Assembly (NCBI GenBank): GCA_025363655.1
Contig: JANYDK010000117.1
Coordinates: 1 to 64,000 of the forward strand
DNA: 64,000 nt
Source of the DNA: Deltaproteobacteria bacterium
Lineage (GTDB): Bacteria > Myxococcota_A > Polyangia > Polyangiales > JADJMO01
Direction of reading: 5' to 3'
Shown: piece after piece, positions 3,367-54,109 of the stretch
Position numbering within the stretch: the first letter of the stretch is position 1
Layout of the letters: each line of letters starts with the position of its first letter
Notes under the pieces: model-generated
The model's input: only the letters and a program-made list of their open reading frames with translations
Database searches by the model: none
Told to the model about the DNA's origin: nothing
Translations under genes and position numbers: made by a program

Positions 3367-4257
3367 TCAGCTCCCGACGTCGATGACGACGTCTTCTGCC
3401 GCGAAAATCACGCGCGATCGCGGCGCACGCGCGGTGACCCCCGGCCACACGATCGCCTGCGAGAGGACGCCTTTACCGACGACTCGTGCATCGGACTCGA
3501 GGGCGCACTTCTCGAGACGCACGTCTCCTTCGCACTTGGCGTCGACGTCGACGAACGAGTCACCAGAGTCACGAGAGCCCAGCTCATCGAGGCACGCTTC
3601 GAGGTAGCTCTTCGGATCTCCGACGTCGTGCCAGCATCCGACGTAGGCGAGCGTGCGCAGCGTCTCTCCGCGTGCGATCGCCGGCAGATAGAGATCGTCG
3701 ATGAGACACCCACGGCTCGGTGCGCGCGCCGCCAGCTCGCCGCGCAGGAGATGAATCGCCGCAAATTGCGTGCTCCGCGTCTCTTTGCCGAACGACGTCG
3801 TCCGCAGTCGCACCACGCGTCCTTCGTCGTCGATGCCGACGTTGCCGACGCCCGGCTCGAGCTCGCCGCGCACCGCGAGGACGGCGCTGTCGTCGCGACC
3901 GAGCGCAGCATGGAGCGCGCGCACGTCGACGTCGGCGACGATGTCACCATTCCAAATCACCACTGCTTCGGCGCCGGCGAGGTGCGGCGCGACGGCAGCG
4001 AGCCCGCCCGCGGTCCCACGCGGTCCGTCTTTCTCGACCTCCACCCCCACGTCCAAGAGACGCCCGAGGCCCGCCACGTCTTCCGCGCGATGGAAGGCAT
4101 TGGCGACGACGCGCGAGACCCCGCCAAGGCGAAGCGCGGAGGCGGCTCGCCCGAAGGGGGTGCTCCCGACCAACGGAAAACAGGGCTTGGGTCGCAAGGC
4201 GCTCAGTGCAGCGGCGCGCGAGCCGACACCGGCAGCGAGGATGAGCCCGGCAATCAC
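3367..4257 (-). CDS. NTP-transferase family sugar nucleotidyltransferase (mannose-1-phosphate guanylyltransferase-like)
   Basis: MIAGLILAAGVGSRAAALSALRPKPCFPLVGSTPF signature; VIWNGDI. Confidence 0.85.
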   Translation of the reverse strand: MIAGLILAAGVGSRAAALSALRPKPCFPLVGSTPFGRAASALRLGGVSRVVANAFHRAEDVAGLGRLLDVGVEVEKDGPRGTAGGLAAVAPHLAGAEAVVIWNGDIVADVDVRALHAALGRDDSAVLAVRGELEPGVGNVGIDDEGRVVRLRTTSFGKETRSTQFAAIHLLRGELAARAPSRGCLIDDLYLPAIARGETLRTLAYVGCWHDVGDPKSYLEACLDELGSRDSGDSFVDVDAKCEGDVRLEKCALESDARVVGKGVLSQAIVWPGVTARAPRSRVIFAAEDVVIDVGS

Positions 4258-7040: not shown

Positions 7041-10000
7041 GTGCGCGGTCGGACGTACGAACTCGACGGGCTCCTCGAGCTCCCTCACCTCCGGGATCTC
7101 GGCGCCCGGCGCGCCAGCTTTCGTCAGGCGCTGGCCAACCTCGCGCGCATCGGCGAGCTCGATGGACCGTCACCGCTCGAAGGCGTCGCCCCCGAGGCGC
7201 TCGGTCGTGGCGTCAAGGTCGCCCTCGAGAGTGGGCTCTTCGACGATCTCGAGTGGCTCTCCGACACTGCCGTTGGCGTCGCGCTCTACGAGCTCGCGGC
7301 CGCGTTGCCTGCCGGGCACGAGAAGCGAGAGCTCGGTCGACGGGTGCTCTCGCGGCTCCACGAAGGCTCGGCGCCGGTCTTCGCGGCGATCGTCACCCGC
7401 ATGGCCCTCGGTACGCGAAAAGGCCTCGCCGGTCCGGCGATCGCCGCGCGCACGTCGCTCCTCTTCGCCCTCCGTGGCGGCATCGTCGACGCCGGACCGC
7501 TCGCCTTCGCCTTCGCCTCGCGTCGCGAGCTCGCCCGAGAGTGGATCGGTCAGCGCTCGACGGGCTCGCTTCCTTCGCGCCGTCTCGCCTCGCGCATCAT
7601 CGAGCACGCGGCCGTGGTCGCCGCTCGTCGCGCCGCACAAGGCGACGATTACGCGCCGCGCGTCTTCGCGACCGAACAGAACGCCATTTCCTTCGCGCGC
7701 CTCCTCGCCGATCGTGAGCCGCTCGTCTGGCGACACGCGGCCGTCGCGCGTGGTCTGCTCGGTGGCGTCTCTTCCGCGCCCTGGAAGGCGATCACCGACG
7801 CGCTCCATCCGCGCTTCACCCCCACCGAGTGGCGACGCGCGGCGGTCTCGATCGTCGCCGCCATCGCCACCAGCCCCGCTCGCGCCTTGCCGCGCGCGCT
7901 CGATCTCCTCCGCGGCGGAATCATCGCGCGCGATCGAGGCCTCGCCGCGACGATGGTCTGGGGTCTTCCGCGTGTCTTCGACGTCGAGCCCGAGGCGGCA
8001 GAGCAGCTCCTCGATGCCGTGGTCGACGTCGACGATGTCGGGGCCGCCGAAGCGATCGCCGCCATCGCGCCCGATTTGAGCGGCGAATCTGGCCGTCGAG
8101 CGGTCGCCACTGCGCGCGCGATCCTCGCCGATCGCATCGCCGCACGGACCAGCAACGTCGGTGAGCCCGACGACGAGCGAATGGTGGCGCACGCGCTCTA
8201 TGAAGAGCTCTCCGCCGAACGCGATCGCAGCGGAACGCTTCGCGACGCGGTCGATCGCGCGCTCGCCGCGTGGGTCTCGGGCGGCGCTCGGGACGCACAC
8301 GCGATCGCCGGCGAAGCGATGGAGACCGCCCGCGTCGGCCTCTCCGCGCTCGAGAGCCTCGACGACGAAGGTGAAGAGAGCGGCGCCGCCGTCGTTCGTC
8401 GCACCGCGGTTCTCCTCCTCCGCGATCTCGACGCCGGACTGCTCGAAGACTCGTCGCTCGGCGATCTTCTCCAGCTCCGGCCGCAGACCGTGCCGAGCCC
8501 GGAATCCGCCTCGATCGCCGATCTCCACGATCGGCTCGGCCTCTGGCTTCTCGCGCGCGAGCGAAGCGGCAAACGGCCGGTCGAGTACGGAATGAGCGGC
8601 AGACGCCTGCGCGCGCTCCTCCATCTCGTCGATCACGAATCGGCCGAACGTGACGACGACGGCGCTCCCAACGCGGCGCGCGTCCGCGGTCGTCGCCTCG
8701 ACGCCGTCCGGGTCCTCCTCGATCGCCTGCCGAGAGATCGGCGCTCGCCCGTGCATCGCACGCTCTGTGCGACCTTGGCGCGCGCCTTCGATGCGCTCGT
8801 CCGCGACGGCACCTGCGAGCCGGTCGACGTGATGATGGTGTCGCTCGCGCTCCTCGAAGAGGGCACCGACCTGGCCACCCTCGGCGAGGCGAGCATGGAT
8901 CCCGACGTCGCCGGTGCGCTCCGGGCGTGCGCGCGTTTCGTCCGTGCGATCACCGACGAGGCCATCCCGCTGGTGACGCCGTCGGCGGGCCCGATGTCCT
9001 TTCCCGCCGCATCGACCGACGATCGACCGGCGCCAGGTGATCAGCGCATCGAGGCGCTCCTCGAGCTCGCGGCCGCGCTCGGTGACGACGGTTCGGGGCG
9101 CGCCGAAGCACTTCGTGCAGTGCTCTCGCGCATCGCTCGTGCGTTGCAGAACGTGCAAGGTGCCCCCGCGCGCAAGAGCCTCCAAGACGGCGCCGGCGGC
9201 TCGTTCGATGCGCTCGCCGGTGCGGCGTCGGCCTACGCGCAGATGGACCAAGGCGCACGTCGACGTGTGCTGGGTGGACGCGACGATCTTCCGACCTCCG
9301 CCGTGGCTGCAGGCCTCGGCAGTCGCCTCGCCCCGCTTCTCTCCCGAGTCTCCGACGTGTCTCTCGAGACGGCGAAGGGAGCCGTGCAAGAGGCGCTCTC
9401 CGATTTGCAGCGCGTGCTTCCTTCGGCCCTCTTTCGCTTGGTCGACGAGGTCTTTCGTCGCGCGCTCGAGAGGCCCTACGAGTCCGATGCGGCCTCGGCG
9501 TCGAACCTTCGCGTCGGCGAAGAGCTCCCGAGCTGGCTCGGCGCGCGTCGCACCATCGGCGGCTTCTACGTCGTCCGTCCGCTCGGCGGCGGCGCGGCGG
9601 CTTCGGTCTTCGTCGCCAAGCGCATCGAAGAGCGTCACGAGGCAGGCGCCGAGCGGTTCGCGCTCAAGGTGCCCGATTACGACGGCGCCGCCGCGCGCAG
9701 CCTCTCCGAGCAGGAGTTCCTCGCCTTTTTCCGCGCCGAAGCCTCCGCGCTCCTCGGCCTCCCGCCCGATCCGAACCTCGCCCGCTTCGTCACCTTCGAT
9801 CTCGCCGCTCGTCCCAAGCCGATCCTGGTGATGGAGCTGATCGAAGGACCGACGCTCGAACGATTCGTCGCCGCCGCCGAGACCAGCAACGGGACGACGA
9901 CGACGCAGCGCGCGCTCGAGATCCTCGACGGGGTCCTCGCCGGTCTCGAGGTGATGCATAAGTACGCTATCGGTCACCTCGACGTGAAGCCCTCGAACGT

Positions 10001-10424
10001 GGTTCTGCGTGAAGGAAAGACGCCTGCGCTCGTCGATTTCGGGCTCGCCGGTCGTCACGTGCGACCGGGTTGCGCCACCGGTCCCTATGGCGCGCCGGAG
10101 GTGTGGGGCATCCTCCCCGACGACTTCACCGGCGAGCCTTCGCCGCTTCCCGCCGACATCTACGCGTTCGGTGCGCTGGCCTTCGAAGTGCTCACCGGGC
10201 GTACGCTCTTCGACGGACCGAACGAGGTCGCGATCATCAGCCGCCACCTGACGCACGACGGGCACCCCGACGCGCTCGACGCCGTCGCCCACGTCCGTCC
10301 GGTGATGGAGTTGATCGAGCAGACCCTACGCCGTGATCCCCGCCAACGTTTGACGGTGCCGCAAGTGCGCGCCGGCCTCCGCGCGCTCATGCCGGCGGTC
10401 GCTCCGCTCGCCTGGCCGCTTTAG
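7041..10424 (+). CDS. Large protein with ~800-aa helical N-terminal region and C-terminal Ser/Thr protein kinase domain
   Basis: GTG start; C-terminal GGFYVVRPLGGGAAASVF, FALKV, HLDVKPSNVVL, DFGLAG, APEVWG. Confidence 0.85.
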   Translation: MRGRTYELDGLLELPHLRDLGARRASFRQALANLARIGELDGPSPLEGVAPEALGRGVKVALESGLFDDLEWLSDTAVGVALYELAAALPAGHEKRELGRRVLSRLHEGSAPVFAAIVTRMALGTRKGLAGPAIAARTSLLFALRGGIVDAGPLAFAFASRRELAREWIGQRSTGSLPSRRLASRIIEHAAVVAARRAAQGDDYAPRVFATEQNAISFARLLADREPLVWRHAAVARGLLGGVSSAPWKAITDALHPRFTPTEWRRAAVSIVAAIATSPARALPRALDLLRGGIIARDRGLAATMVWGLPRVFDVEPEAAEQLLDAVVDVDDVGAAEAIAAIAPDLSGESGRRAVATARAILADRIAARTSNVGEPDDERMVAHALYEELSAERDRSGTLRDAVDRALAAWVSGGARDAHAIAGEAMETARVGLSALESLDDEGEESGAAVVRRTAVLLLRDLDAGLLEDSSLGDLLQLRPQTVPSPESASIADLHDRLGLWLLARERSGKRPVEYGMSGRRLRALLHLVDHESAERDDDGAPNAARVRGRRLDAVRVLLDRLPRDRRSPVHRTLCATLARAFDALVRDGTCEPVDVMMVSLALLEEGTDLATLGEASMDPDVAGALRACARFVRAITDEAIPLVTPSAGPMSFPAASTDDRPAPGDQRIEALLELAAALGDDGSGRAEALRAVLSRIARALQNVQGAPARKSLQDGAGGSFDALAGAASAYAQMDQGARRRVLGGRDDLPTSAVAAGLGSRLAPLLSRVSDVSLETAKGAVQEALSDLQRVLPSALFRLVDEVFRRALERPYESDAASASNLRVGEELPSWLGARRTIGGFYVVRPLGGGAAASVFVAKRIEERHEAGAERFALKVPDYDGAAARSLSEQEFLAFFRAEASALLGLPPDPNLARFVTFDLAARPKPILVMELIEGPTLERFVAAAETSNGTTTTQRALEILDGVLAGLEVMHKYAIGHLDVKPSNVVLREGKTPALVDFGLAGRHVRPGCATGPYGAPEVWGILPDDFTGEPSPLPADIYAFGALAFEVLTGRTLFDGPNEVAIISRHLTHDGHPDALDAVAHVRPVMELIEQTLRRDPRQRLTVPQVRAGLRALMPAVAPLAWPL

Positions 10425-10456
10425 TCCGGCGACCGAACGACGCGAGATCGACCGGC

Positions 10457-12381: not shown

Positions 12382-12411
12382 TGTATAAAGTGGCTATGTG
12401 ATCTCGGTCAG
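12382..12411 (-). promoter_or_regulatory. Possible sigma70-like promoter upstream of the PEGA/TPR gene
   Basis: Reverse strand CTGACC-18 nt-TATACA in a locally AT-richer patch; motif match only. Confidence 0.25.
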
Positions 12412-13979
12412 TACGCGCTGGAGACGCCGGTTCCACCGAACTGTGGCTCGGTCGACGTCGTCGAGGGCGCGGCGCTCGTCACGCCTGGCACGACGCTCGA
12501 CGACGCCTTCGCCGACGAAGCCACCGGGGGCAGCTTTCCGAGGAACTTGCCGGACATCGCCGAGCCGAGCGGCTTCTTCGTGCTCGCGCTCCCGCTCGAG
12601 GACGCGCCGGCGACTCCAGTCGCATTCGTGTCGGCGGCGAGCTGCGAGCTCGAGACCGACGGGCTCGCACCGGTGACGGCGCGCGACGGATCGCCTCCGT
12701 TCGTGGGCGCACTGCCCGAGCTCCCGCCGCGATAGGTCACCGCGTAGAGTCCCGCGCCAGCCATCATCAAGACGATGGCGACGGCGATGAATCCACGACT
12801 GCCGCGCGCACGCGGAGACGACGGCGTCGGCTCGTCTTCGTGACGTAGTCCGAGGGCGGGCGCTTGCACCGAGACGCCCGATTCGGTGGGCGGCGAGATT
12901 CGAATGCGCGGGTTCGAGCCGGACGCCGCGAGTAGTGGCTGCGTGGCCGCGACGGCGCCGCGATGTGCATTGCGCGAACCACCTTCGCCCGCCGGAATGA
13001 CGATCGCATCGGGGCCAGTTCCATCGACCTCGCCGTGGATCACCCGCGCGCCGTCACGCGCATCACGCGCTTCACGTGAGTGGGGCGAAGTGGCGAACGC
13101 CTCGGGCAACGCATCGTGGAGCATCCGCGCGAAGGTCGCGCAGTCGGGAATGCGCAGCTCGACGTCGTGCTCGAGCGCTTGGTCGACGATGGCGATCACC
13201 GACGCCGGCACCCACGGCGCGATCTCCGAGAGCGGTGGCGGCTTCTTCAAGACGATGGCGAAGATGGTCTGCTCGTAGGTCTCGAGCTGCTCGTACGCCT
13301 GTCGGCCGGACAGCATCTCGTAGAGGCAAGCGCCGAGCGACCAGACGTCGGTGCGCGCGTCGATCGGCTGTCCCTGCGCCTGTTGCGGCGACATGTATTG
13401 CGGCGTGCCGACCGCCGAGCCCCAACGCGTGATCGGGCGCTTCGGATCGGGGTTCTCGTCGCCCTCGGTGAGCACCTTGCTGATGCCGAAGTCGACCAAC
13501 TTGACGGTGACGTGCCCGTCGTCGCGCACGCTGAGGAAGACGTTGGCGGGCTTGAGATCACGGTGAATGACGCCCGCCGCGTGCGCCTTCGAGAGACCGC
13601 GCGCCGCTTGGTGGGTGATGTCGACGGCGAGCTCGGGGGAGAGGCGCTCTTCGCGATCGAGTCGCGTCGCCACGTCTTCGCCGGTGAGGAACTCCATCAC
13701 CATGTAGAGGCCGAAGACGTCGTCTTGGCCGACGTCGAAGACCTGCACGATGTGGTCGCTCTCGACCCGACTGGCCGCCCGCGCCTCCTGGCGGAAACGT
13801 GCAGCCAGGTCGGTCCCGCTCTTCGCGTGATGCGCGGCGATGATCTTGATGGCGACCCGCTTGCCGATCTCGACGTGGGTCCCTTCGTACACCGAGCCCA
13901 TCCCCCCCTGGCCGAGGAGGCGCTTGACCAGGAATTTCCCGGCGAGCGTCGCCCCGAGGGGCGAGGGAAGCTCCGACAT
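12408..13979 (-). CDS. Transmembrane Ser/Thr protein kinase (PknB-like)
   Basis: LLGQGGMGSVYEG, VAIKII, VIHRDLKPANVFL, DFGISKV, then TM and Ser/Ala/Thr-rich tail. Confidence 0.95.
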   Translation of the reverse strand: MSELPSPLGATLAGKFLVKRLLGQGGMGSVYEGTHVEIGKRVAIKIIAAHHAKSGTDLAARFRQEARAASRVESDHIVQVFDVGQDDVFGLYMVMEFLTGEDVATRLDREERLSPELAVDITHQAARGLSKAHAAGVIHRDLKPANVFLSVRDDGHVTVKLVDFGISKVLTEGDENPDPKRPITRWGSAVGTPQYMSPQQAQGQPIDARTDVWSLGACLYEMLSGRQAYEQLETYEQTIFAIVLKKPPPLSEIAPWVPASVIAIVDQALEHDVELRIPDCATFARMLHDALPEAFATSPHSREARDARDGARVIHGEVDGTGPDAIVIPAGEGGSRNAHRGAVAATQPLLAASGSNPRIRISPPTESGVSVQAPALGLRHEDEPTPSSPRARGSRGFIAVAIVLMMAGAGLYAVTYRGGSSGSAPTNGGDPSRAVTGASPSVSSSQLAADTNATGVAGASSSGSASTKKPLGSAMSGKFLGKLPPVASSAKASSSVVPGVTSAAPSTTSTEPQFGGTGVSSAY

Positions 13980-14020
13980 GAAAGGACTCTAGTATGACGC
14001 GATTCGGGCCGCAGAACCAA

Positions 14021-14104
14021 GCTTCGGCAACCGAGCGGAGCGAGATTGACCGAAGCGGCCAAAGTTGCGAGCCAATCTTGGCAAAACGAGAAGTTTCTCG
14101 GCCG
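14021..14104 (+). repeat. Copy A of dispersed structured intergenic element
   Basis: gcttcggcaaccgagcggagcgagattgaccgaagcggccaaagttgcgagccaatcttggcaaaacgagaagtttctcggcc; near-identical to 21538-21620 (reverse) and 38556-38648. Confidence 0.9.
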
Positions 14105-14107
14105 AAC

Positions 14108-15520
14108 TCAGAGAGAAGCCGCCAGCTGGTTCGCTTGGCGCACACAGTCGGAGATGCCGACGCCATCGTAGGCGCTACCGAGCAGATGCAGTCCTGGGTG
14201 TCCGCGCAACAACTCGCGAATGCGAGCCATTTTCGCGGGGTGACCGACGCGCGGTTGCGGGCTCGCACGGACGAAGCGCGAGACGAAGTCGACGATTGGG
14301 GCCGCTTCGACGTGGAGGACGCGCTTCGCCTCGGCACGGGCGAGCGCGATCAGCGACGCGTCGTCTCCGTCCATCGCCGCGCTGCCGAAGAAAAAGCGGA
14401 GGAGGACCATCCCCGAGGGAGCACGTCCCGCCCACTTGCTGGTCACCCACGTCGAGGCGAGCGCGCTCATCGCCGAGGTGCGCGCCGACGCGGGGACGAT
14501 GTAGCCGGTGGCATCGAGTGGATGCGCGATGGCGTCGCGCGGGAACGCGAGGAACACCGTGCACGACGATCCATAAACTATGGATGCAAGCTCGTCGGCG
14601 AGCGGTTCGGAGTGGGGACGGAGGAGCGTCGCCGCGGCGTGCGCCGGTCCGGTGACGACGACCTGATCGGCCGCGATCGGTTCGCTGCCGTCGATGCCGA
14701 CCTCGTATCCACCGCCCTCGCGTCCGCCCTCACGTCCGCCCTCACGTCGCGAGATGCGGAGGACGTGCGCGCCATAGCGAACCCGATCGCCGAGCCGCGC
14801 CGTGAGCGTGTCGACGAGCTCGCCGATGCCTCCGGCGAGGCCGATGAACGGGCTCGAACGCACCGCGCCGCCCTTGGGAGACATCTTTCGACCGGCGAAG
14901 AAGACGCCGCCGCGCTTCTCCAACGCCGCGAGCTGGGGCACCGTCGCGAGCATGCTGAGATCGGAGACCTCGCCGGTGTAGAGCCCGCCGAGGAGCGGTC
15001 CGGCGAGCGCCTCTTCCACTTCGCGTCCGAAGCGCCGCGTGATCCAGGCATCGAGCGCTTCGTCGTCGCCGGTCTTCGGATCGCGTCCGAAGCCGATGGG
15101 CAGGAGCGGCTCGAGCAGCGCGCGCAACTTGCCACGCCACGAGAGGAGCGGCGTGCGCAGCAGCGGCCGAACGCGCGTCGGCAAGCCGAGGATCAGTCCA
15201 TCGGGGAGCGCCACCAGCGAGCCATCGCGCTGGGCGACGTAGACGCGGCGGTTCTGTGGGAGCGTCTCGACCAGACGATCGCCGAGGCCGAGCGCGCGCG
15301 AGAGCTCGGTCGCCGCTGGCTTGGCCGCCACCCACGAGTCACCGGCGTGATCGATGAGGAAGCCATTTTTCCGAGTCGTTCGCAGGTTGCCGCCGGCGCG
15401 GGCCGAACCTTCGAGCACGAAGACGTCGTGCCTCGAGGATCTCTGGGAGAGCGCGAACGCGAACGCGAGGCCGCTGATCCCCGCGCCGACGACGACGATG
15501 CGCGATCGCCTCTCGGCCAT
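14108..15520 (-). CDS. hemG: Protoporphyrinogen oxidase (FAD-dependent, HemY/PPOX type)
   Basis: IVVVGAGISGLAFAFAL dinucleotide-binding motif, ARAGGNLRTTRKNGFLIDHAG, C-terminal LLGSAYDGVGISDCVRQA; next to hemE. Confidence 0.9.
   Translation of the reverse strand: MAERRSRIVVVGAGISGLAFAFALSQRSSRHDVFVLEGSARAGGNLRTTRKNGFLIDHAGDSWVAAKPAATELSRALGLGDRLVETLPQNRRVYVAQRDGSLVALPDGLILGLPTRVRPLLRTPLLSWRGKLRALLEPLLPIGFGRDPKTGDDEALDAWITRRFGREVEEALAGPLLGGLYTGEVSDLSMLATVPQLAALEKRGGVFFAGRKMSPKGGAVRSSPFIGLAGGIGELVDTLTARLGDRVRYGAHVLRISRREGGREGGREGGGYEVGIDGSEPIAADQVVVTGPAHAAATLLRPHSEPLADELASIVYGSSCTVFLAFPRDAIAHPLDATGYIVPASARTSAMSALASTWVTSKWAGRAPSGMVLLRFFFGSAAMDGDDASLIALARAEAKRVLHVEAAPIVDFVSRFVRASPQPRVGHPAKMARIRELLRGHPGLHLLGSAYDGVGISDCVRQANQLAASL
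14712..14747 (+). repeat. 12-bp tandem repeat x3 (ccgccctcrcgt) in hemG
   Basis: Three copies encoding GREG units (RREGGREGGREGGG). Confidence 0.9.
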
Positions 15521-20251: not shown

Positions 20252-21526
20252 ATGCGATCGATGTTCGGGCTCGTTTTTGCGGGCATTCTCGGGTTGGGTT
20301 GTGGGCAGGTGGAGCCACGCGGGGAGCCGCCCTTCGCCGGCGCTGCGGCCGAGGGTGCGCCTTCAGCGCGTCCCGTTCGATACGCGGTGCCGATCGATGG
20401 GCTACGGGCGATCGGGCGTGAAGATGCGCCGGTCACCGTCGTCACCTTCACGGACTACGAGTGCCCGTTCTGTGCACGCGCAGAGGCGACGGTCGCCGCG
20501 TTGAAGGCCGAGCTCGGCGACGATCTGCGCGTCGTCATCGCCGAGCATCCGCTGCCGATGCACAGCAATTCGCGCGAGGCGGCGCTCGCCGCGTTGTCGG
20601 TGCCGCCTGATCGGTTCGCCGAGATGCACGCTGCGCTCTTCGCTCCGAACGCACCGCACACAGGTGAAGCGCTGGTTCATCTGGCGAGCGGGGTGGGCGT
20701 CGACGAGAGCGCGTTTCGTGCTCGATTCGCTGGAAAAGAAGCGCACGCCGCGCTCACGGAGGCCGAAGATCTGGCCGCTTCGCTCCACGTCAACGGGACG
20801 CCGACGTTCTTCGTCAACGGCATCCGCATCGATGGCGCGCAGCCGCTCGATCGCTTCGTGACGGTCGCGCGCGAAGAGTTGGCCTACGCGCGTGGCCTCC
20901 TCGCCAAGGGCATCGCACCGAATCGCGTGTACGCCGCGCTCCTCGCCGAGGCCCGGGAAAACCCACCCGCGATGCCCGCGCCTTCGCCCGCGCCCGCGCC
21001 CGAGCTCACCTTCGTTCCCGCGGCGAAGGAGACCGGCGGTGCTGCGTATCTCGGCGCCCTCGATGCTCCACGCTCGCTCGTCGTCTTCGTCGACTACGAG
21101 TGCCCTTTCTCGAAGCGTCTCGACGCGCAGCTGCGGACTTTCTCCGCCGAGCACTCCGACGTCCGCGTCGTCGTTCGCAACCGGCCGCTCTCGTTCCACG
21201 TCAACGCGCGGCTCGCGGCGCAGGCGGCGATCGCGGCCGAGCTCCAGGGAAAGCTCGAGCCGTACGCGCAGGCGCTCTACGCCCACGGCGACGCGCATGG
21301 GCGTGCCGAGCTCGTCGCCTACGCCGACCAGTTGGGCCTCGATCGAGCGCGTTTTCTCGCTGATCTCGACTCTACGGCGGTCGCCAAGCGGCTCGCCGAC
21401 GACGAAGCATGGGCGGAGAAACTGGGCGTCACCGGCACCCCCACGTCCTTCGTCGACGGCCAACGCATCGTCGGCGCCCAACCGCCGGCAACGTTCGCCT
21501 TGGCGCTGTCACGACCGAGCGAGTGA
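20252..21526 (+). CDS. Lipoprotein with two tandem DsbA/thioredoxin-like domains
   Basis: LGLGC lipobox; domain 1 FTDYECPFCAR...NGTPTFFVNG; domain 2 FVDYECPFSKR...TGTPTSFVDG. Confidence 0.88.
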   Translation: MRSMFGLVFAGILGLGCGQVEPRGEPPFAGAAAEGAPSARPVRYAVPIDGLRAIGREDAPVTVVTFTDYECPFCARAEATVAALKAELGDDLRVVIAEHPLPMHSNSREAALAALSVPPDRFAEMHAALFAPNAPHTGEALVHLASGVGVDESAFRARFAGKEAHAALTEAEDLAASLHVNGTPTFFVNGIRIDGAQPLDRFVTVAREELAYARGLLAKGIAPNRVYAALLAEARENPPAMPAPSPAPAPELTFVPAAKETGGAAYLGALDAPRSLVVFVDYECPFSKRLDAQLRTFSAEHSDVRVVVRNRPLSFHVNARLAAQAAIAAELQGKLEPYAQALYAHGDAHGRAELVAYADQLGLDRARFLADLDSTAVAKRLADDEAWAEKLGVTGTPTSFVDGQRIVGAQPPATFALALSRPSE

Positions 21527-21537
21527 AAGAAACGTCG

Positions 21538-21620
21538 AACGAGAAGCTTCTCGTTTCGCCAAAGATTGCCACGCAACTTTGGCCGCTTCGGTCAATCTCG
21601 CTTCGCTCGGTTGCCGAAGC
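21538..21620 (-). repeat. Copy B of dispersed structured intergenic element
   Basis: Reverse complement matches copies A and C; contains perfect palindrome AACGAGAAGCTTCTCGTT (21538-21555). Confidence 0.92.
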
Positions 21621-23698
21621 TAGAGCGCACCACGGATCGCCAGAGACGGTCCGTGGAAGACGTCGACGCCGCCGAAATCGGTGCGGCGTTCGGCGCCGGC
21701 GTCGCTGTTGTTGCGATGAATCGAGGTGTAAATGACGTCGGCGCGATAGAGCGCGCGGAGGTCGAGGCGCACCCGACTTCCCCGCGGCAGGAGTCGCCAG
21801 CGCAACCCGAGACCGAGGCCGCCGTTGAAGACGAACGCCGTCTCGTGGAAGTCTTCGTGGTTCGCGGCGACGTCGCCGCCGAGCGGATCTTTCAGGAAGT
21901 AGAACGAGCTCGGCCCTGCGCCGCCGAAGAGGGCGACGTCGAGGAAGGGCGAGAAGCGCGGCGCCTCGCCGACGCCGAAACGCGCGGTGCCACCGGCCAT
22001 GTAGTACCGCGACGTCACGTTCTGCGCCGGGCTCTCGCGCGAGAACGTGAAGGCCTTCACGTTCGGATCGGCCGAGGTGTTGGTGAGCTCGTAGAGAATG
22101 CGCGGCAGCGTGTATTTCACGTAGCGCACGCCGACGACGAGCTCTTCCATCCAGGCCTTCATCGACGCGTCGCCGACCGCCCAGAGAATGTCGTAGCCGA
22201 CGTCGACCTGCGTGTACTGGAGCTTGAGGGGCGAGGTGTCGATGACGTTGTCGACGTTGGTCGCCTGCACCTTGCGCACTTCGCCGGCCGTGAAGGTGGC
22301 GATTTTCGCGGAGCTGCGGATGCCGAGGATGCCGAGTCCGAAGTCGATGACGTCGCTGGCGGCGCCGTGGATGCCGAGCTGCGAGGTGAGCGACGTCTGC
22401 TCGATGGTGCCGCCCGAGCTGAACGCGCGGTCGGTCGAGTAGCCGAAGCCGAGAAAGCCGGCCGACGGGAGGTTGATGGCGTCGAAGGTGATGTCGAGGC
22501 GCGCGGAGGCGAGGATGATCGGCTTGACCTTGTAGTCGAGCTTGAACGACCTCCCGCGGTAGTCGAGCGTCTCCTTGCCGTTGTCGTACGTCTGCTGCGC
22601 CTGGAGCGGCACGTTGTTGTAGATGAAGGCCTCGCCGCCGGCCTTGAGATCGATGCGGAAGCTGTCGAGCGTGATGCCGACGATTTGATCGACGACGCTC
22701 TCTTTGAAGAGGAACCCCGGAGAGTCGTCGACGTCTTCCTTGAAGGCCCGCGCGAGGATGTTGGTCATTCCCTCGAGGAGCGGGATTTGCCGGCTGATTC
22801 GCTCTTTGATCGACGCGATGTACGCCGGCAGTTGCCACGCCTGACGAATCGCCTTCAGCGAGGGGTGCTCGACCAGATCTTTCGGCGCATCGGGCAGCGA
22901 ACGCACCGTCTGGATGGCGATGATCGGCGCGAGCGCGAGCGCTTCGAGCTCGAGACGGAAGGCCACCGACAACGCGGTCAGCGCCTCGCGCGCCACCTGC
23001 GCCCGCGCCTCGGTGTCGAGCTGCGCATCACTGGCCAGCAGCTCGGCGTCGCGCGTGATGTCGCGCTTCGAAGCGTCGACCGCCGCCGCCGCAGCCGAGA
23101 CCTGACGCTGCTTCTCGTAGAGCTCGGGCGCCCGCTTCTTCTTGTCGTCTTCGCTCGCCGAGGCGAGCTCGTCGTCGAGCTCTTTGTGCGCCTGCACCGC
23201 CTTGCCGAGCGCGTCGATGGCGTCGCGGTAGGCCGTCCAATGCGCTTTCACGAGCGGCGCGCGCGGCACGAGCCCGGCGACGGCGTCGAGGATCGACGGA
23301 TACATCGCCTTCTCGGGCGGCGGCGCGTACTCGCGCAACGTCTGCTCGATGTAGAGGCGGTAAATCTTGAGGATGGGGACTTCGAACTCGCCGGTGTTGT
23401 ACGGCGCGCTCTCGAGGATCTTCTCTTTGACAGCGCGCGCGTCGGCCTCGCGAAGCGGCAGTCGTCGCACCCAGAGATCGCCCGGGGTGTAGGGCGACCC
23501 GACGAGAATGCGATCGACGAGCTCGAGGGTTCGCGCCAGATCTTCCACGCGATCGAGCGACACCCGGAGACTCGCGTCTTCGTGGGCATAGGCACGCACC
23601 GCGCGGACGTTTTGCTGCACTCCGCAGCCGAGCGCGAACGGCGCTGCGAGGACCGCGCCGCAGAGCATCGCGCGCATCATCTGGCTACGCCTCTTCAT
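21620..23698 (-). CDS. Large lipoprotein of unknown function, helical N-terminal and beta-rich C-terminal region
   Basis: Start at MKRRSQ; FALGCGVQQ lipobox; strong coding frame to TAG at 21620. Confidence 0.75.
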   Translation of the reverse strand: MKRRSQMMRAMLCGAVLAAPFALGCGVQQNVRAVRAYAHEDASLRVSLDRVEDLARTLELVDRILVGSPYTPGDLWVRRLPLREADARAVKEKILESAPYNTGEFEVPILKIYRLYIEQTLREYAPPPEKAMYPSILDAVAGLVPRAPLVKAHWTAYRDAIDALGKAVQAHKELDDELASASEDDKKKRAPELYEKQRQVSAAAAAVDASKRDITRDAELLASDAQLDTEARAQVAREALTALSVAFRLELEALALAPIIAIQTVRSLPDAPKDLVEHPSLKAIRQAWQLPAYIASIKERISRQIPLLEGMTNILARAFKEDVDDSPGFLFKESVVDQIVGITLDSFRIDLKAGGEAFIYNNVPLQAQQTYDNGKETLDYRGRSFKLDYKVKPIILASARLDITFDAINLPSAGFLGFGYSTDRAFSSGGTIEQTSLTSQLGIHGAASDVIDFGLGILGIRSSAKIATFTAGEVRKVQATNVDNVIDTSPLKLQYTQVDVGYDILWAVGDASMKAWMEELVVGVRYVKYTLPRILYELTNTSADPNVKAFTFSRESPAQNVTSRYYMAGGTARFGVGEAPRFSPFLDVALFGGAGPSSFYFLKDPLGGDVAANHEDFHETAFVFNGGLGLGLRWRLLPRGSRVRLDLRALYRADVIYTSIHRNNSDAGAERRTDFGGVDVFHGPSLAIRGAL

Positions 23699-37344: not shown

Positions 37345-38505
37345 CTAGTTTCTGCGCCCCGCCGCCACCCACGCACCCAAGGCTGCGAGGACGAACGCCA
37401 CCGGGGCGCACGCGACGCCCAAGGCGACTGCCACCGGCGCGACCACTCCGAGGGCGAAGAGCAGCGCGATCAGCGCCAAAATCGCCGAAAGACCGGCCTC
37501 GAGGACGAACGGGCGATCTGGTGCGTTGCGACCTCCTCCGGCGAGGCCGACGACGGCGGCGCTGATCGGGAAGCTCATGATCACGCCGAGCACCAAGAGG
37601 AGCGCCGCGTACTCTGCGCCCGGACCGCTGCGATCGATTTCGCCGAAGTCGATGTGCGCGCTGCGGCCGATGGCGACGGCGCCGGAGAAGCCGAGCACCA
37701 TGCCGCCGACGTTGCCGAGCGCGCCGAGGACGATCCAGATGGGGCGCACCGAGCCGCGTGAGAGTTGTTCGCGGGCGAGGCCGACGAGGGACTCGCGGCT
37801 CATCGCGCGGAGCGAGCCATGCATCGAGGTGCGGCCGCGCCCGACGCGGCTGATGCCGAAGGCGGCGAGCGCGGTCGAGACGACGGCGATGATCAGCGCG
37901 ACCGACATGCCGCCGGCGCCGCGTGTGCGGAGCGCGACCTCGACGGCGCCGCGCGCGATCATCACCGAGAGCGCGTAGCGGCCGAAGGGAGTACCCCCCA
38001 GCTTGCCGTCGAAGGCCGAGCGCGAGAGGCCGTAGCCCCAGGTGGCGGCGAGGGCGATTTCGTCGACCGTCATGATCGAGGCACGCACGCCGCTCGAGAG
38101 CGCGCCCTTTTCGAGGATGACATAGGTGAGGAGCCGGCCCATCGAGAACGCGGCGCCCGTCACTGCGGCGGCGAGCGGTGGATCGACGTCGTCGTGGAGC
38201 GCTTGCGAGATCACCATCCACACCAGCACCACCAACGTCAGCACCGTGAGCGGCCCGACGATGCCGAAGCCGACGAGGGCCATTCCGACGCCCTCGGCGC
38301 CGCTCAGGCGACCGCCGACGAGGAAGTCCATCACCAGCGATTCGACGGCGCGCAGCACCACCGCCGCGACGACGCCGCCGAGGAGGAGGACGATCCAGCT
38401 CTGCGCTCCCCAGCGCGTGTGTCCGCGGTATCGATGCCTCGCGAGCGCCACCAGCCCGATCGCCACGAGGGCGATGACGAGCGGCGGGAGGACGGCGAGC
38501 TTCAT
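37345..38505 (-). CDS. Polytopic membrane protein of unknown function
   Basis: 386 aa with about 9-10 hydrophobic segments. Confidence 0.75.
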   Translation of the reverse strand: MKLAVLPPLVIALVAIGLVALARHRYRGHTRWGAQSWIVLLLGGVVAAVVLRAVESLVMDFLVGGRLSGAEGVGMALVGFGIVGPLTVLTLVVLVWMVISQALHDDVDPPLAAAVTGAAFSMGRLLTYVILEKGALSSGVRASIMTVDEIALAATWGYGLSRSAFDGKLGGTPFGRYALSVMIARGAVEVALRTRGAGGMSVALIIAVVSTALAAFGISRVGRGRTSMHGSLRAMSRESLVGLAREQLSRGSVRPIWIVLGALGNVGGMVLGFSGAVAIGRSAHIDFGEIDRSGPGAEYAALLLVLGVIMSFPISAAVVGLAGGGRNAPDRPFVLEAGLSAILALIALLFALGVVAPVAVALGVACAPVAFVLAALGAWVAAGRRN

Positions 38506-38555: not shown

Positions 38556-38648
38556 GCTTCGGCAACCGAGCAGAGCGAGATTGACCGAAGCGGCCAAAGT
38601 TGCGAAGCAATCTTTGGCGAACTGAAGGGCGAAACGAGACGCTTCGGC
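38556..38648 (+). repeat. Copy C of dispersed structured intergenic element
   Basis: gcttcggcaaccgagcagagcgagattgaccgaagcggccaaagttgcgaagcaatctttggcg...; 8-bp gcttcggc also present at the far end. Confidence 0.92.
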
Positions 38649-39425
38649 TCAGGGGTAGTGGAAGCCGATGTGCGCGAGCGCGGTCGCCATGAAGCCGGTG
38701 CCGCTCTGATCGCTGGAAAACTGCGGGTTCCCGCCGAGGCCTTTGCTCTTGAGGAAGAGCGCGTCGAGCGTACCGTCGAGGCCGACCTCGATGTTGCTGC
38801 TGACGTAGTACTGGAAACCCGCGCGTGCACCGACGTCGATGCCGTTGATGCTCACGAGATCGCAGGCCGCGCCGCAGACATCGGTGTTCAACTTCGCAGC
38901 CCAAGCGTAGCCGACCGTGAGGCCGAAGCGCGGCCAGAAACGGCCCGAGCCCGGCTGGTAGGCAAACTCGCCGCCGGCGGTCCAGAGGTTGTACTGCGGC
39001 GTCGTCAGCGCGCGGAGGCGACCACCGAGCTGGAAGGTGATGAGCTCGACGCCGGCGCCGAGACCGAATGCGGGACCCGCCGGTGTGCCGGTGTCGGACC
39101 CGCCGGTCAGCGACTTGGGGATGCTGGCGAGACCGAGGCCGATTTCGGGTTGGATGTAGACGAAGTGGAGGCCCACGCCGGTGTCCTGGGCGCTCGCTTG
39201 ATCGAGCGCTGCCGCCGTCGAGCCCGCGGGAGGAGGAGGCGTGGCGCTGCCGACCGTGCCCGGCTCGGGCATCGGCGGCGGGGGAGGGGGCGCGCCGTTC
39301 GGATCGCCGCCCGCAGGATCGGGGGTGAGGTCGGTGGCGGACGCGTTGGCAGCGGAGGCAGTGACGAGCAGAAGCGCCGCGAGGCCTGTCAGGACCCGAA
39401 GTGAAGACACGTGGAAACTCCTCAT
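38649..39425 (-). CDS. Outer-membrane beta-barrel-like exported protein
   Basis: Start ATG at 39425 (MRSFHVSSLRVLTGLAALLLVTASAANA); Pro-rich segment; beta-strand pattern to C-terminal GFHYP. Confidence 0.75.
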   Translation of the reverse strand: MRSFHVSSLRVLTGLAALLLVTASAANASATDLTPDPAGGDPNGAPPPPPPMPEPGTVGSATPPPPAGSTAAALDQASAQDTGVGLHFVYIQPEIGLGLASIPKSLTGGSDTGTPAGPAFGLGAGVELITFQLGGRLRALTTPQYNLWTAGGEFAYQPGSGRFWPRFGLTVGYAWAAKLNTDVCGAACDLVSINGIDVGARAGFQYYVSSNIEVGLDGTLDALFLKSKGLGGNPQFSSDQSGTGFMATALAHIGFHYP

Positions 39426-39468
39426 GTTCGAGCCATCCTTTTTCACCACTGCGACTGCGAACCGCGCT

Positions 39469-50957: not shown

Positions 50958-53900
50958 GACGGCTCCGTCGCCGCGACCGTGACTGGCTTCTTCTCGCTGC
51001 GATCGCCGCCCTCACCCCGCTCACCGCCCTCACCGCGCTCACCCCGCAAGAAGCGTGAGAGGCGGACCATGTAGAGGTAGACGACCGGCGTCGTGTAGAG
51101 CGTGAGCACCTGAGAGACCAAGAGCCCGCCGACGATGGTGATGCCGAGCGGGCGGCGCAGCTCGGCGCCGGTGCCGTGCTCGAGCGCGAGCGGGAGTCCG
51201 CCGAGGAGGGCGGCCATCGTCGTCATCATGATCGGCCGAAAGCGCATGAGACACGCTTGGTGAATCGCCTCCTCCGGTGAGAGCCCTTGCTCACGCTCCG
51301 CCTCGAGCGCGAAGTCGATCATCATGATCGCGTTCTTTTTCACGATCCCGATGAGGAGGACGATGCCGATGAGGGCGATGACGGTCAGCTCGGTGTGCGT
51401 GACGAGGAGCGCGAGGATGGCGCCGACGCCGGCCGAGGGGAGCGTCGAGAGAATGGTGATCGGGTGGATGTAGCTCTCGTAGAGCACGCCGAGCACGATG
51501 TAGACGGTGATGAGCGCGGCGAGGACGAGGATCGGTTCGCTCGCCAGCGACTCGCCGAACGCATACGCGGTGCCCTGAAATTCCGCGTGAACACTCGCCG
51601 GCAAGCCGATGCGTGTCTCCGCGGCGCGGATGGCGTCGACCGCAGTTCCCAGCGAGACGCCGGGCGCGGTGTCGAACGAGAGCGTGACGACGGGAAACTG
51701 TCCCTGGTGGTTCACCGCCAGCGGCGCCGCCACCTTCTCGAAGTGCGCGAACGCCGAGAGCGGCACGATGCCGCCGGAGATCGCGCGCACGTAGATTCGT
51801 GAGAGCGCTTCGACGTTCTGTTGGTCGCTCGGCTGCACCTCGAGGATGACGCGGTACTGGTTCAACTGCGTGAAGATCGTCGACACCTGACGCTGCCCGA
51901 AGGCGTCGTAGAGGACGTCGTCGATTTGCTGCGGCTGTACGCCGAGGCGCGAGGCGGTGTCGCGATCGATGACCACCGAGAGCTGCTCGCCGCCGACGAC
52001 GCGATCGCTGGCGACGTTCTTCAGCTCGGGGAGCGCGACCATCGCCTTCTGCATCTCGTCGGACCAGACGCGGAGCTCTTCCAGGTCGGCGTCTTCGAGC
52101 GTGAACTGGTACTGCGTGCGGCTCGTCTTGCTCTCGATGGTGAGGTCTTGCACCGGCTGCAGGTAGGTGATGAGACCGGAAATCTGCTGCAATTTAGGGG
52201 CGATTCGCGCGATCACCGAGGCCGCGTCGCCGTCGCGCTCCTCGCGGGGCTTGAGCGTGATCGAGAGTCGTCCAGTGTTGCCGGTGGCGTTGACCCCGTC
52301 GGCGCCGATGAACGAAGCGACCGCGGCGACGTCCGGGTCTTCGCGCACCACGTCGGCGACCTGACGCTGCAGCTCGACCATTCGCCCGAACGACACGTCG
52401 GCGCGCGCCTCGGTGACGCCGAGGACGAGGCCGGTGTCCTGCTGAGGAAAGAAGCCCTTGGGCACGATCAGCGCGAGCCAGGCCGTGACGGCGACGGTCG
52501 CGATGGTGGCGAACAAGGTCAGCGGTTGGTGGCGCAGCACCCAGCGGACGCCGACGTCGTAGCCGTCGACCACGCGCGTCCAGAACTTCTCCGACACGCG
52601 ATGGAACCAACCCTGCGACTCGCCGGGGTGGTGCGACTTCAGCAAGTACGCGCACATCGTCGGCGTCAGCGTCAGCGAGAGCACCGCGGAGACGCCGATC
52701 GCCGCCGCGAGGGTGACCGCGAACTCACGAAAGAGCTTGCCGATAAGCCCTTGCATGAAGAGCAGGGGAATCAGCACCGCGACCAGCGACACCGTCAGCG
52801 AGACGATGGTGAAGCCGATTTGCTTCGCCCCCTTGAGCGCCGCATCGAGCGGCTTCTCGCCCTGCTCGAGGTAGCGCGAGATGTTCTCGATCATGACGAT
52901 GGCGTCGTCGACGACGAAGCCGGTCGAGATCGTCAGCGCCATCAGCGAGAGGTTGTCGAGGCTGTAGCCGAGCGCGTACATCACGCCGAAGGTGCCCACG
53001 AGCGAGAGCGGAACGGCGATGCCGGGGATGATGGTGGCGCGGAAGCTACGTAAAAATACGTAGATGACGAGCACCACCAGGCCGATGGTGAGGACCAGCG
53101 TGAACTGGACGTCGCGCACCGACGCACGTACGGTCTCGGTGCGATCGCTCAGCACGCGCACCTCGAGCCCTTGCGGCAGCGTCGCCTGCAGCTTCGGCAA
53201 GAGCGCCTTCACCCGATCGGCGACCTCGATGATGTTGGCGCCCGGTTGGCGCTGCACGTTGAGGATGATCGCGCGCTTGCCGTCGGCCCAACCCGCCAGT
53301 TGGGTGTTCTCGACGCCATCGCCGACGTGCGCGATTTCGCGCAGACGCACCGGCGCGCCGTTCTTGTAGGCGATCACCACCGGTTCGAATGCCGCTGCAT
53401 TTCCCAGCTGATCGTCGGTAGCGAGGGTGAAGTTCTGCCGCGCTCCGTCGAGGTCGCCCTTCGGCTGGTTGACGTTGGCGGCGACGATCGCGAGGCGCAC
53501 GTCCTCGAGGGTGAGGTTGCTCCCGGCGAGCGCCGCCGGATCGACCTGCACGCGCACGGCAGGCTTCTGTCCGCCGCCGATGGTGACGAGCCCGACACCC
53601 GAGACCTGCGAGACCTTCTGCGCCAAAATCGAGTCGGCGAAGTCGTCGACCTTCTCCAGCGGCAACGTGTCGGAGCTGATGGCGAGGGTGAGAATCGGCG
53701 CGTCGGCGGGGTTGCTCTTGCTGTAGACGGGCGGCGCGGGGAGCGTGCGCGGCAAGAGCGCCGAGGCCGCGTTGATCGCCGCCTGCACGTCTTGCTCGGC
53801 GGAGTCGATCGAACGATCGAGCGTGAATTGCAGGGTGATTTGCGACCAGCCGAAGCTGCTGATCGACGTCATCTGCGTCAGCGACGGCACCTGTCCGAAC

Positions 53901-54109
53901 TGTCGTTCGAGGGGCGTCGTCACCGACGAGGCCATCGTGTCGGCGCTCGCACCGGGCAGGTACGTGCTGACGACGATGGTCGGATAGTCGACCTGCGGGA
54001 GCGCCGAGACCGCCAGCTGCCTGTAGGCGACGATGCCAGCGAGGAGGAGCCCGATCATGAGCAGCGCCGTAGCGATCGGGCGCCGGATGAAGGGCTCGGA
54101 GATGCTCAC
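50954..54109 (-). CDS. mdtB: RND efflux transporter permease (MdtB-like)
   Basis: FIRRPIATALLMIGLLLAGIVAYRQLAVSALPQVDYPTIVV; VVDDAIVMIENI; paralogous to downstream gene. Confidence 0.9.
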   Translation of the reverse strand: MSISEPFIRRPIATALLMIGLLLAGIVAYRQLAVSALPQVDYPTIVVSTYLPGASADTMASSVTTPLERQFGQVPSLTQMTSISSFGWSQITLQFTLDRSIDSAEQDVQAAINAASALLPRTLPAPPVYSKSNPADAPILTLAISSDTLPLEKVDDFADSILAQKVSQVSGVGLVTIGGGQKPAVRVQVDPAALAGSNLTLEDVRLAIVAANVNQPKGDLDGARQNFTLATDDQLGNAAAFEPVVIAYKNGAPVRLREIAHVGDGVENTQLAGWADGKRAIILNVQRQPGANIIEVADRVKALLPKLQATLPQGLEVRVLSDRTETVRASVRDVQFTLVLTIGLVVLVIYVFLRSFRATIIPGIAVPLSLVGTFGVMYALGYSLDNLSLMALTISTGFVVDDAIVMIENISRYLEQGEKPLDAALKGAKQIGFTIVSLTVSLVAVLIPLLFMQGLIGKLFREFAVTLAAAIGVSAVLSLTLTPTMCAYLLKSHHPGESQGWFHRVSEKFWTRVVDGYDVGVRWVLRHQPLTLFATIATVAVTAWLALIVPKGFFPQQDTGLVLGVTEARADVSFGRMVELQRQVADVVREDPDVAAVASFIGADGVNATGNTGRLSITLKPREERDGDAASVIARIAPKLQQISGLITYLQPVQDLTIESKTSRTQYQFTLEDADLEELRVWSDEMQKAMVALPELKNVASDRVVGGEQLSVVIDRDTASRLGVQPQQIDDVLYDAFGQRQVSTIFTQLNQYRVILEVQPSDQQNVEALSRIYVRAISGGIVPLSAFAHFEKVAAPLAVNHQGQFPVVTLSFDTAPGVSLGTAVDAIRAAETRIGLPASVHAEFQGTAYAFGESLASEPILVLAALITVYIVLGVLYESYIHPITILSTLPSAGVGAILALLVTHTELTVIALIGIVLLIGIVKKNAIMMIDFALEAEREQGLSPEEAIHQACLMRFRPIMMTTMAALLGGLPLALEHGTGAELRRPLGITIVGGLLVSQVLTLYTTPVVYLYMVRLSRFLRGERGEGGERGEGGDRSEKKPVTVAATEPS
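51011..51046 (+). repeat. 9-bp tandem repeat x4 at the 3' end of the mdtB-like gene
   Basis: ctcaccccg/ctcaccgcc/ctcaccgcg/ctcaccccg encoding GERGEGGERGEGG. Confidence 0.9.

Follow-up and report, generated by a model that had tools for sequence, protein, structure and literature searches.

We describe a repeat of 73 nt; a covariance model (CM) search of the host genome (9.04 Mb) found at least 150 copies. It is apparently a real, nearly genome-specific family of REP-like repeats, undescribed within the open literature, whose placement at stop codons is unusually exact. The repeat is probably a REP/BIME-like, non-autonomous interspersed element that was moved in trans and that accumulated these copies in one lineage; this reading of its mobility draws on one genome of the species and on the corresponding loci of relatives. 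The original prediction, made from the window (the whole 64,000-nt stretch of DNA that was analysed), was of a structured element that is dispersed in intergenic DNA and belongs to no named family. This description is borne out by the copy number, by the covariation of the stems, and by the lack of any match above the gathering score in Rfam 15. Far from being limited to three copies without covariation, the family is large and its stems covary, and no known IS end or repeat family matched it in what could be searched.

The repeat unit and its copies in the window

The unit consists of two bulged hairpins and a tail of about 9 nt. Its consensus is AGCTTCGGCAACCGAGCGGAGCGAGATTGACCGAAGCGGCCAAAGTTGCGAAGCAATCTTTGGCGAAACGAGA, with AGCTTCGG and GAAACGAGA as its ends. 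Hairpin 1 is GCTTCGG-CAA / TTG-A-CCGAAGC and hairpin 2 is GCCAAAG-TTGC-GNA-GCAA-N-CTTTGGC. Both of these stems, including their bulges, had been drawn correctly from the window. In contrast, the original prediction of a three-hairpin element does not hold, as the unit has two. The third hairpin (CGAGAA-GT-TTCTCG, at 14087-14100 on the + strand beside copy A) also accompanies copy B but is absent from copy C, and it is detectable at just 7 of 131 sites, so we rejected it as a feature of the family and consider it local.

The CM and the underlying alignment were built from 35 copies of the host genome, including those in the window. In this alignment, 7 of the 21 base pairs have changed on both sides, versus a mean of 1.5 after shuffling (0 of 500 shuffles matched this), and pairing cells make up 96.4%, versus 19-44% in slid controls. 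For example, GCTTCGG/CCGAAGC of hairpin 1 also occurs as GTTTCGG/CCGAAAC and as GATTCGG/CCGAATC, and CAAAG/CTTTG of hairpin 2 is replaced by CAAGG/CCTTG. Among the copies that could be parsed, the tip is a GC-GNA-GC triloop in 116 of 126 for hairpin 2 and in 93 of 111 for hairpin 1. The DNA mini-hairpin d(GCGNAGC) is unusually stable, which favors a role as single-stranded DNA. This is suggestive only, because the consensus stands out from shuffled sequences to the same extent whether it is folded as DNA or as RNA (z about -4 for both).

The window contains three full copies, as originally predicted: copy A at about 14020-14092 (+ strand; 84.7 bits, E = 3e-17), copy B at about 21548-21621 (- strand; 100.9 bits, E = 7e-21), and copy C at 38556-38627 (+ strand; 98.6 bits, E = 2e-20). 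(These E values are within the window, and the three copies partly built the model that scores them.) The cores of A, B, and C span 14021-14091, 21549-21620, and 38556-38627, and any two of the copies are identical at 63-67 of 72 aligned columns. The prediction missed a half copy at about 10423-10455 (+ strand; 27.9 bits, E = 2e-4), which has hairpin 1 only and belongs to an older subfamily (TCCGGCGACCGA...); genome-wide, the count is of course far above three. The existence of a half copy with hairpin 1 alone suggests that each hairpin is a module that can be separated from the other.

In copy A, hairpin 1 (14021-14056, + strand) has stems of 7 and 3 base pairs, separated by a bulged A in the 3' arm, and a GC-GGA-GC tip, as supported by covariation and by both DNA and RNA folds. 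Based on the alignment and the fold, hairpin 2 (14058-14082, + strand) has decayed relative to the family consensus, and its sequence is GAGCCAATC-TTGGC. According to our gene calls, copy A lies between a protein kinase gene (12408-13979, - strand) and hemG (14108-15520, - strand), and its 3' end points at the stop codon of hemG. The element is indeed oriented opposite to hemG, but it does not end 4 nt away, as had been proposed: the model ends at 14091, which is 16 nt from the stop codon that begins at 14108, and the proposed limit of 14104 takes in part of the right flank. Copy B sits between convergent genes (20261-21526, + strand, and 21620-23680, - strand), and its "AG" completes the TAG stop codon of the minus-strand gene (a gap of -1). 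Copy C sits between two minus-strand genes (37345-38505 and 38649-39449), and its 3' end points at the stop codon of the latter. The half copy is flush with the TAG stop codon of the gene at 7041-10424 (+ strand).

Copy number and occurrence in other genomes

All of the CM matches that we list in the host genome have E below 0.003, and 150 is a lower bound. These 150 scored copies form 135 sites, and among the matches listed, 15 sites have two head-to-tail copies. A search of the host genome with a 16-mer, allowing up to 2 mismatches, found 73 forward and 59 reverse matches, versus 12 and 17 for a reversed-pattern control. The older subfamily begins with CTGTCCGGCGACC. Copies or arrays lie at the starts or ends of six contigs (C14, C35, C48, C61, C70, and C138); since arrays reach the ends of contigs, longer arrays probably broke the assembly, which would mean that the copy number is underestimated. 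One copy (C58:268-339) has flanks that themselves form an inverted repeat (gggcgacggcg / cgccgtcgccc), and it looks as if it had inserted into the loop of an older hairpin.

Outside of the host genome, the repeat is nearly absent. BLAST detected a full copy in none of the 55 other genomes of the order that were searched, and when the CM was run on 289 genomes of the class, just one other genome had a full copy (G266, 66 bits). Two genomes from the same family (G002 and G004) have partial CM matches that are centered on hairpin 2, and G236 has one marginal match. In a set of 317 genomes, the core AGTTGCGNAGCAATCT was found at 82 places in the host and at 4 in G002; a single occurrence in a distant genome is probably due to chance, and no other genome has it. 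We also discarded a match to AGTTGCGAAGCAATCT in a distant member of the class (G066, locus L162), which lies beside a tRNA-like gene, lacks both stem 1 and matching arms, and is apparently a chance match. Among 84,980 species genomes (genome_contigs), from which the host genome is perhaps missing, our initial pattern had no match and the core of hairpin 1 matched one contig, JANXMC010000324.1 from a Myxococcales metagenome-assembled genome, which is probably the same record as the G266 contig. Carriage by viruses was considered and rejected, as no match was found in viruses. Confinement to one genome, with single copies elsewhere, is as expected from a recent expansion.

The partial matches in the sister genus (G002 and G004) belong to a different, composite repeat with multiple hairpins that encloses the hairpin 2 module (L248:2128-2350, L266, L274, and L253). 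In G002, the core and the bulge of hairpin 2 are kept and the arms differ (GCGAGAG/CTCTCGC). In L248, tandem units of the composite repeat recur every 89 nt. The presence of the hairpin 2 module within this composite repeat suggests that modules have been exchanged. Another kind of repeat was seen in a relative from the same family (G003), where a short tandem repeat, (GTCGTCA)n, lies soon after the stop codon, downstream of the ParB orthologue (L293); a similar run is present at L305.

Placement at stop codons

The main feature of the family, which was absent from the original prediction, is that its 5' end abuts stop codons. We computed the context of the copies on the stretches around them, with genes called by a codon-usage script that was trained on 204 kb of the host genome. 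Where the upstream gene is in the sense orientation, the element begins (at its first G) -2 to +5 nt from the stop codon at 42 of 62 sites. A simple model that places copies at random within this intergenic space, ignoring promoter and terminator constraints, would give 9.3 (z about 12). On the convergent side, 14 of 53 sites are flush (7.4 expected), so it is the 5' end rather than the 3' end that is stop-adjacent (Fisher p = 1.3e-5). Even so, of the 16 sense sites that lie between genes of the same direction and have 90 nt or more of additional intergenic DNA, 11 are flush. At gaps of -2 and -1, TAG accounts for 18 of 20 stop codons, compared with a genomic background of 32 of 152 (p = 2e-9); this excess arises because the element contributes the AG of the stop codon.

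Comparisons to relatives show what the insertions did to the upstream proteins. The host's ParB ends with ...LLEKLLK-TAG at the element, while in four relatives that lack the element it ends with ...KILK-TGA, ...KILKA-TGA, ...KIFR-TGA, or ...KILR-TGA. Of 12 further genes, 11 were matched in relatives, with no element after the stop codon at the matched loci, and an amidase gene had no close match in relatives. Most of the close matches of these 11 genes end at the same residue as the host protein or a few residues away; among the weaker matches, there are also paralogues and proteins with longer tails. As the relatives' proteins mostly end alike without the element, insertion left these host proteins essentially intact.

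These observations suit an element whose surviving insertions would mainly be those that spare the upstream protein, with the leading "AG" helping, since T + AG would yield a TAG stop codon. The survival of stop-preserving insertions is the most economical of the three placement ideas that remain, the others being a role of the hairpin on the sense strand and insertion that is coupled to transcription or translation. Alone, it is not obviously enough to explain a peak that is a few nt wide, and the narrowness of the peak suggests, in addition, that insertion has a preference or that a hairpin immediately behind the stop codon has a role on the sense strand. A simple DNA target does not account for the placement. 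We found no diagonal signal of target-site duplication around the copies, and a target motif of TGA or TAG was rejected because stop trinucleotides are not in excess 5' of antisense copies (8 of 61, versus 5-7 of 61 in shifted controls). Together, the lack of a flanking duplication and the lack of enrichment for stop trinucleotides imply that placement is not explained by a DNA motif. Nor do antisense copies turn out to be flush when partial, decayed units are included in the count (32 of 46, versus 27 in shuffled controls, with a maximum of 34), and we rejected this idea as well.

If the element were instead kept mainly for a function at the 3' ends of mRNAs, with hairpins after the stop codon that block 3'-5' exonucleases or slow terminating ribosomes, then its dispersal would be secondary. 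The stop-adjacent position of the 5' end would fit, the stems covary and are stable as an RNA fold, and 3'-proximal REPs are thought to work as RNA (PMC3733652). Nevertheless, we consider this unlikely. Between same-direction genes, the orientation of the element is nearly balanced (40 sense and 31 antisense), and another 20 sites are between divergent genes; orthologues manage without the element; and old copies are no more often flush, as the numbers of flush sites fall from 20 to 14 to 10 from the best-scoring third of the copies to the worst.

Even less likely, in our view, is that insertion is linked to the mRNA or to the termination of translation (for instance, at stop codons that are cut or at which ribosomes stall), with the reading frame guiding the choice of site. 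The 5' junction is marked by a stop codon only if it coincides with the end of a gene, as the antisense copies illustrate. Furthermore, the 50 best-scoring copies include 25 sense sites, of which 20 are already flush, which implies that flushness arises early. The different repeat of the sister genus also starts right after TGA (TGA|GGGGC) at the four loci that we read. Against this, there is no candidate enzyme or intermediate here, selective survival of stop-preserving insertions could mimic the pattern, and some copies are inside genes or far from stop codons. That both repeats are targeted to stop codons by sensing the end of translation, via the mRNA or the ribosome and not via the DNA sequence, seems similarly improbable.

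Mobility and relation to known repeats

Under our preferred reading, that of a REP/BIME-like element moved in trans, the family would have dispersed to new sites and also multiplied locally through head-to-tail duplication. A single-stranded form might fold into the two hairpins and be mobilized in trans by some enzyme, possibly one that is now lost. A HUH/Y1-type nuclease would suit hairpin ends without target duplication. The ends of the element are only briefly alike (AGCTTC-like), and with no terminal inverted repeats beyond this similarity and no target-site duplication, a MITE of a DDE transposon was rejected. An intrinsic terminator was rejected as well (no U-tract was seen), as was an integron attC site (no GTTRRRY core was seen by eye).

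We found one gene for a Y1_Tnp (RAYT-like) protein in the host genome, whose draft is 96% complete. The gene is flanked by perfect inverted repeats of 63 bp (C70:53278-53340 and 53857-53919; L062:3279-3341 and 3858-3920), which belong to a family with 9 strong matches, several of them as inverted pairs. Like the 73-nt repeat, this is a hairpin repeat of the same genome with inverted pairs at several loci, but the two have no sequence similarity. No copy of the 73-nt repeat lies in the 7 kb around the gene. By the usual RAYT logic, a gene that is flanked by its own repeat family serves those repeats, and with unrelated flanking repeats, we rejected this RAYT as the mobilizer of the 73-nt repeat.

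REPs and BIMEs are high-copy, mostly intergenic hairpin repeats, with bulged stems in some families (PMC3733652; PMC2817692), and GTAG REPs lie near the 3' ends of genes and can supply a TAG stop codon (PMC3733652). The 73-nt repeat likewise has palindromic hairpins and a high copy number and is mostly intergenic, close to the 3' ends of the neighboring genes. However, it has two unequal hairpins per unit instead of one palindrome of 20-40 bp, forms head-to-tail arrays, and has its 5' end within a few nt of the stop codon. There is no unpaired GTAG or CGTC tag at its consensus ends, and counts in the flanks show none; nor is there a cognate Y1 transposase that is flanked by the repeat. As it failed the tests for a tag and for a RAYT, we did not file it as a GTAG or CGTC REP. 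That it is an ordinary REP family whose RAYT transposase was lost or was missed in the draft genome is the least probable account, even though bulged hairpins, placement at 3' ends, and the supply of TAG are REP features, because the consensus has neither tag at either end and the sole RAYT-like gene has its own repeats. A further RAYT gene may nonetheless have escaped a draft that is 96% complete.

MIRUs have a similar unit length, are both dispersed and in tandem, and are found at stop codons in operons; they contain short ORFs, which overlap the genes on either side, and no palindromes. The 73-nt repeat resembles them in its site at stop codons, its tandem arrays, and its unit length, but it has two covarying hairpins and, as judged by eye, no evident ORF.

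REP-like repeats have been tied to mRNA stability, translation, and genome plasticity, and most of the described families are tagged with GTAG or CGTC. A young, abundant, and tagless family at stop codons, with GNA tips, is a natural test of how such repeats spread and of why they settle at the ends of genes.
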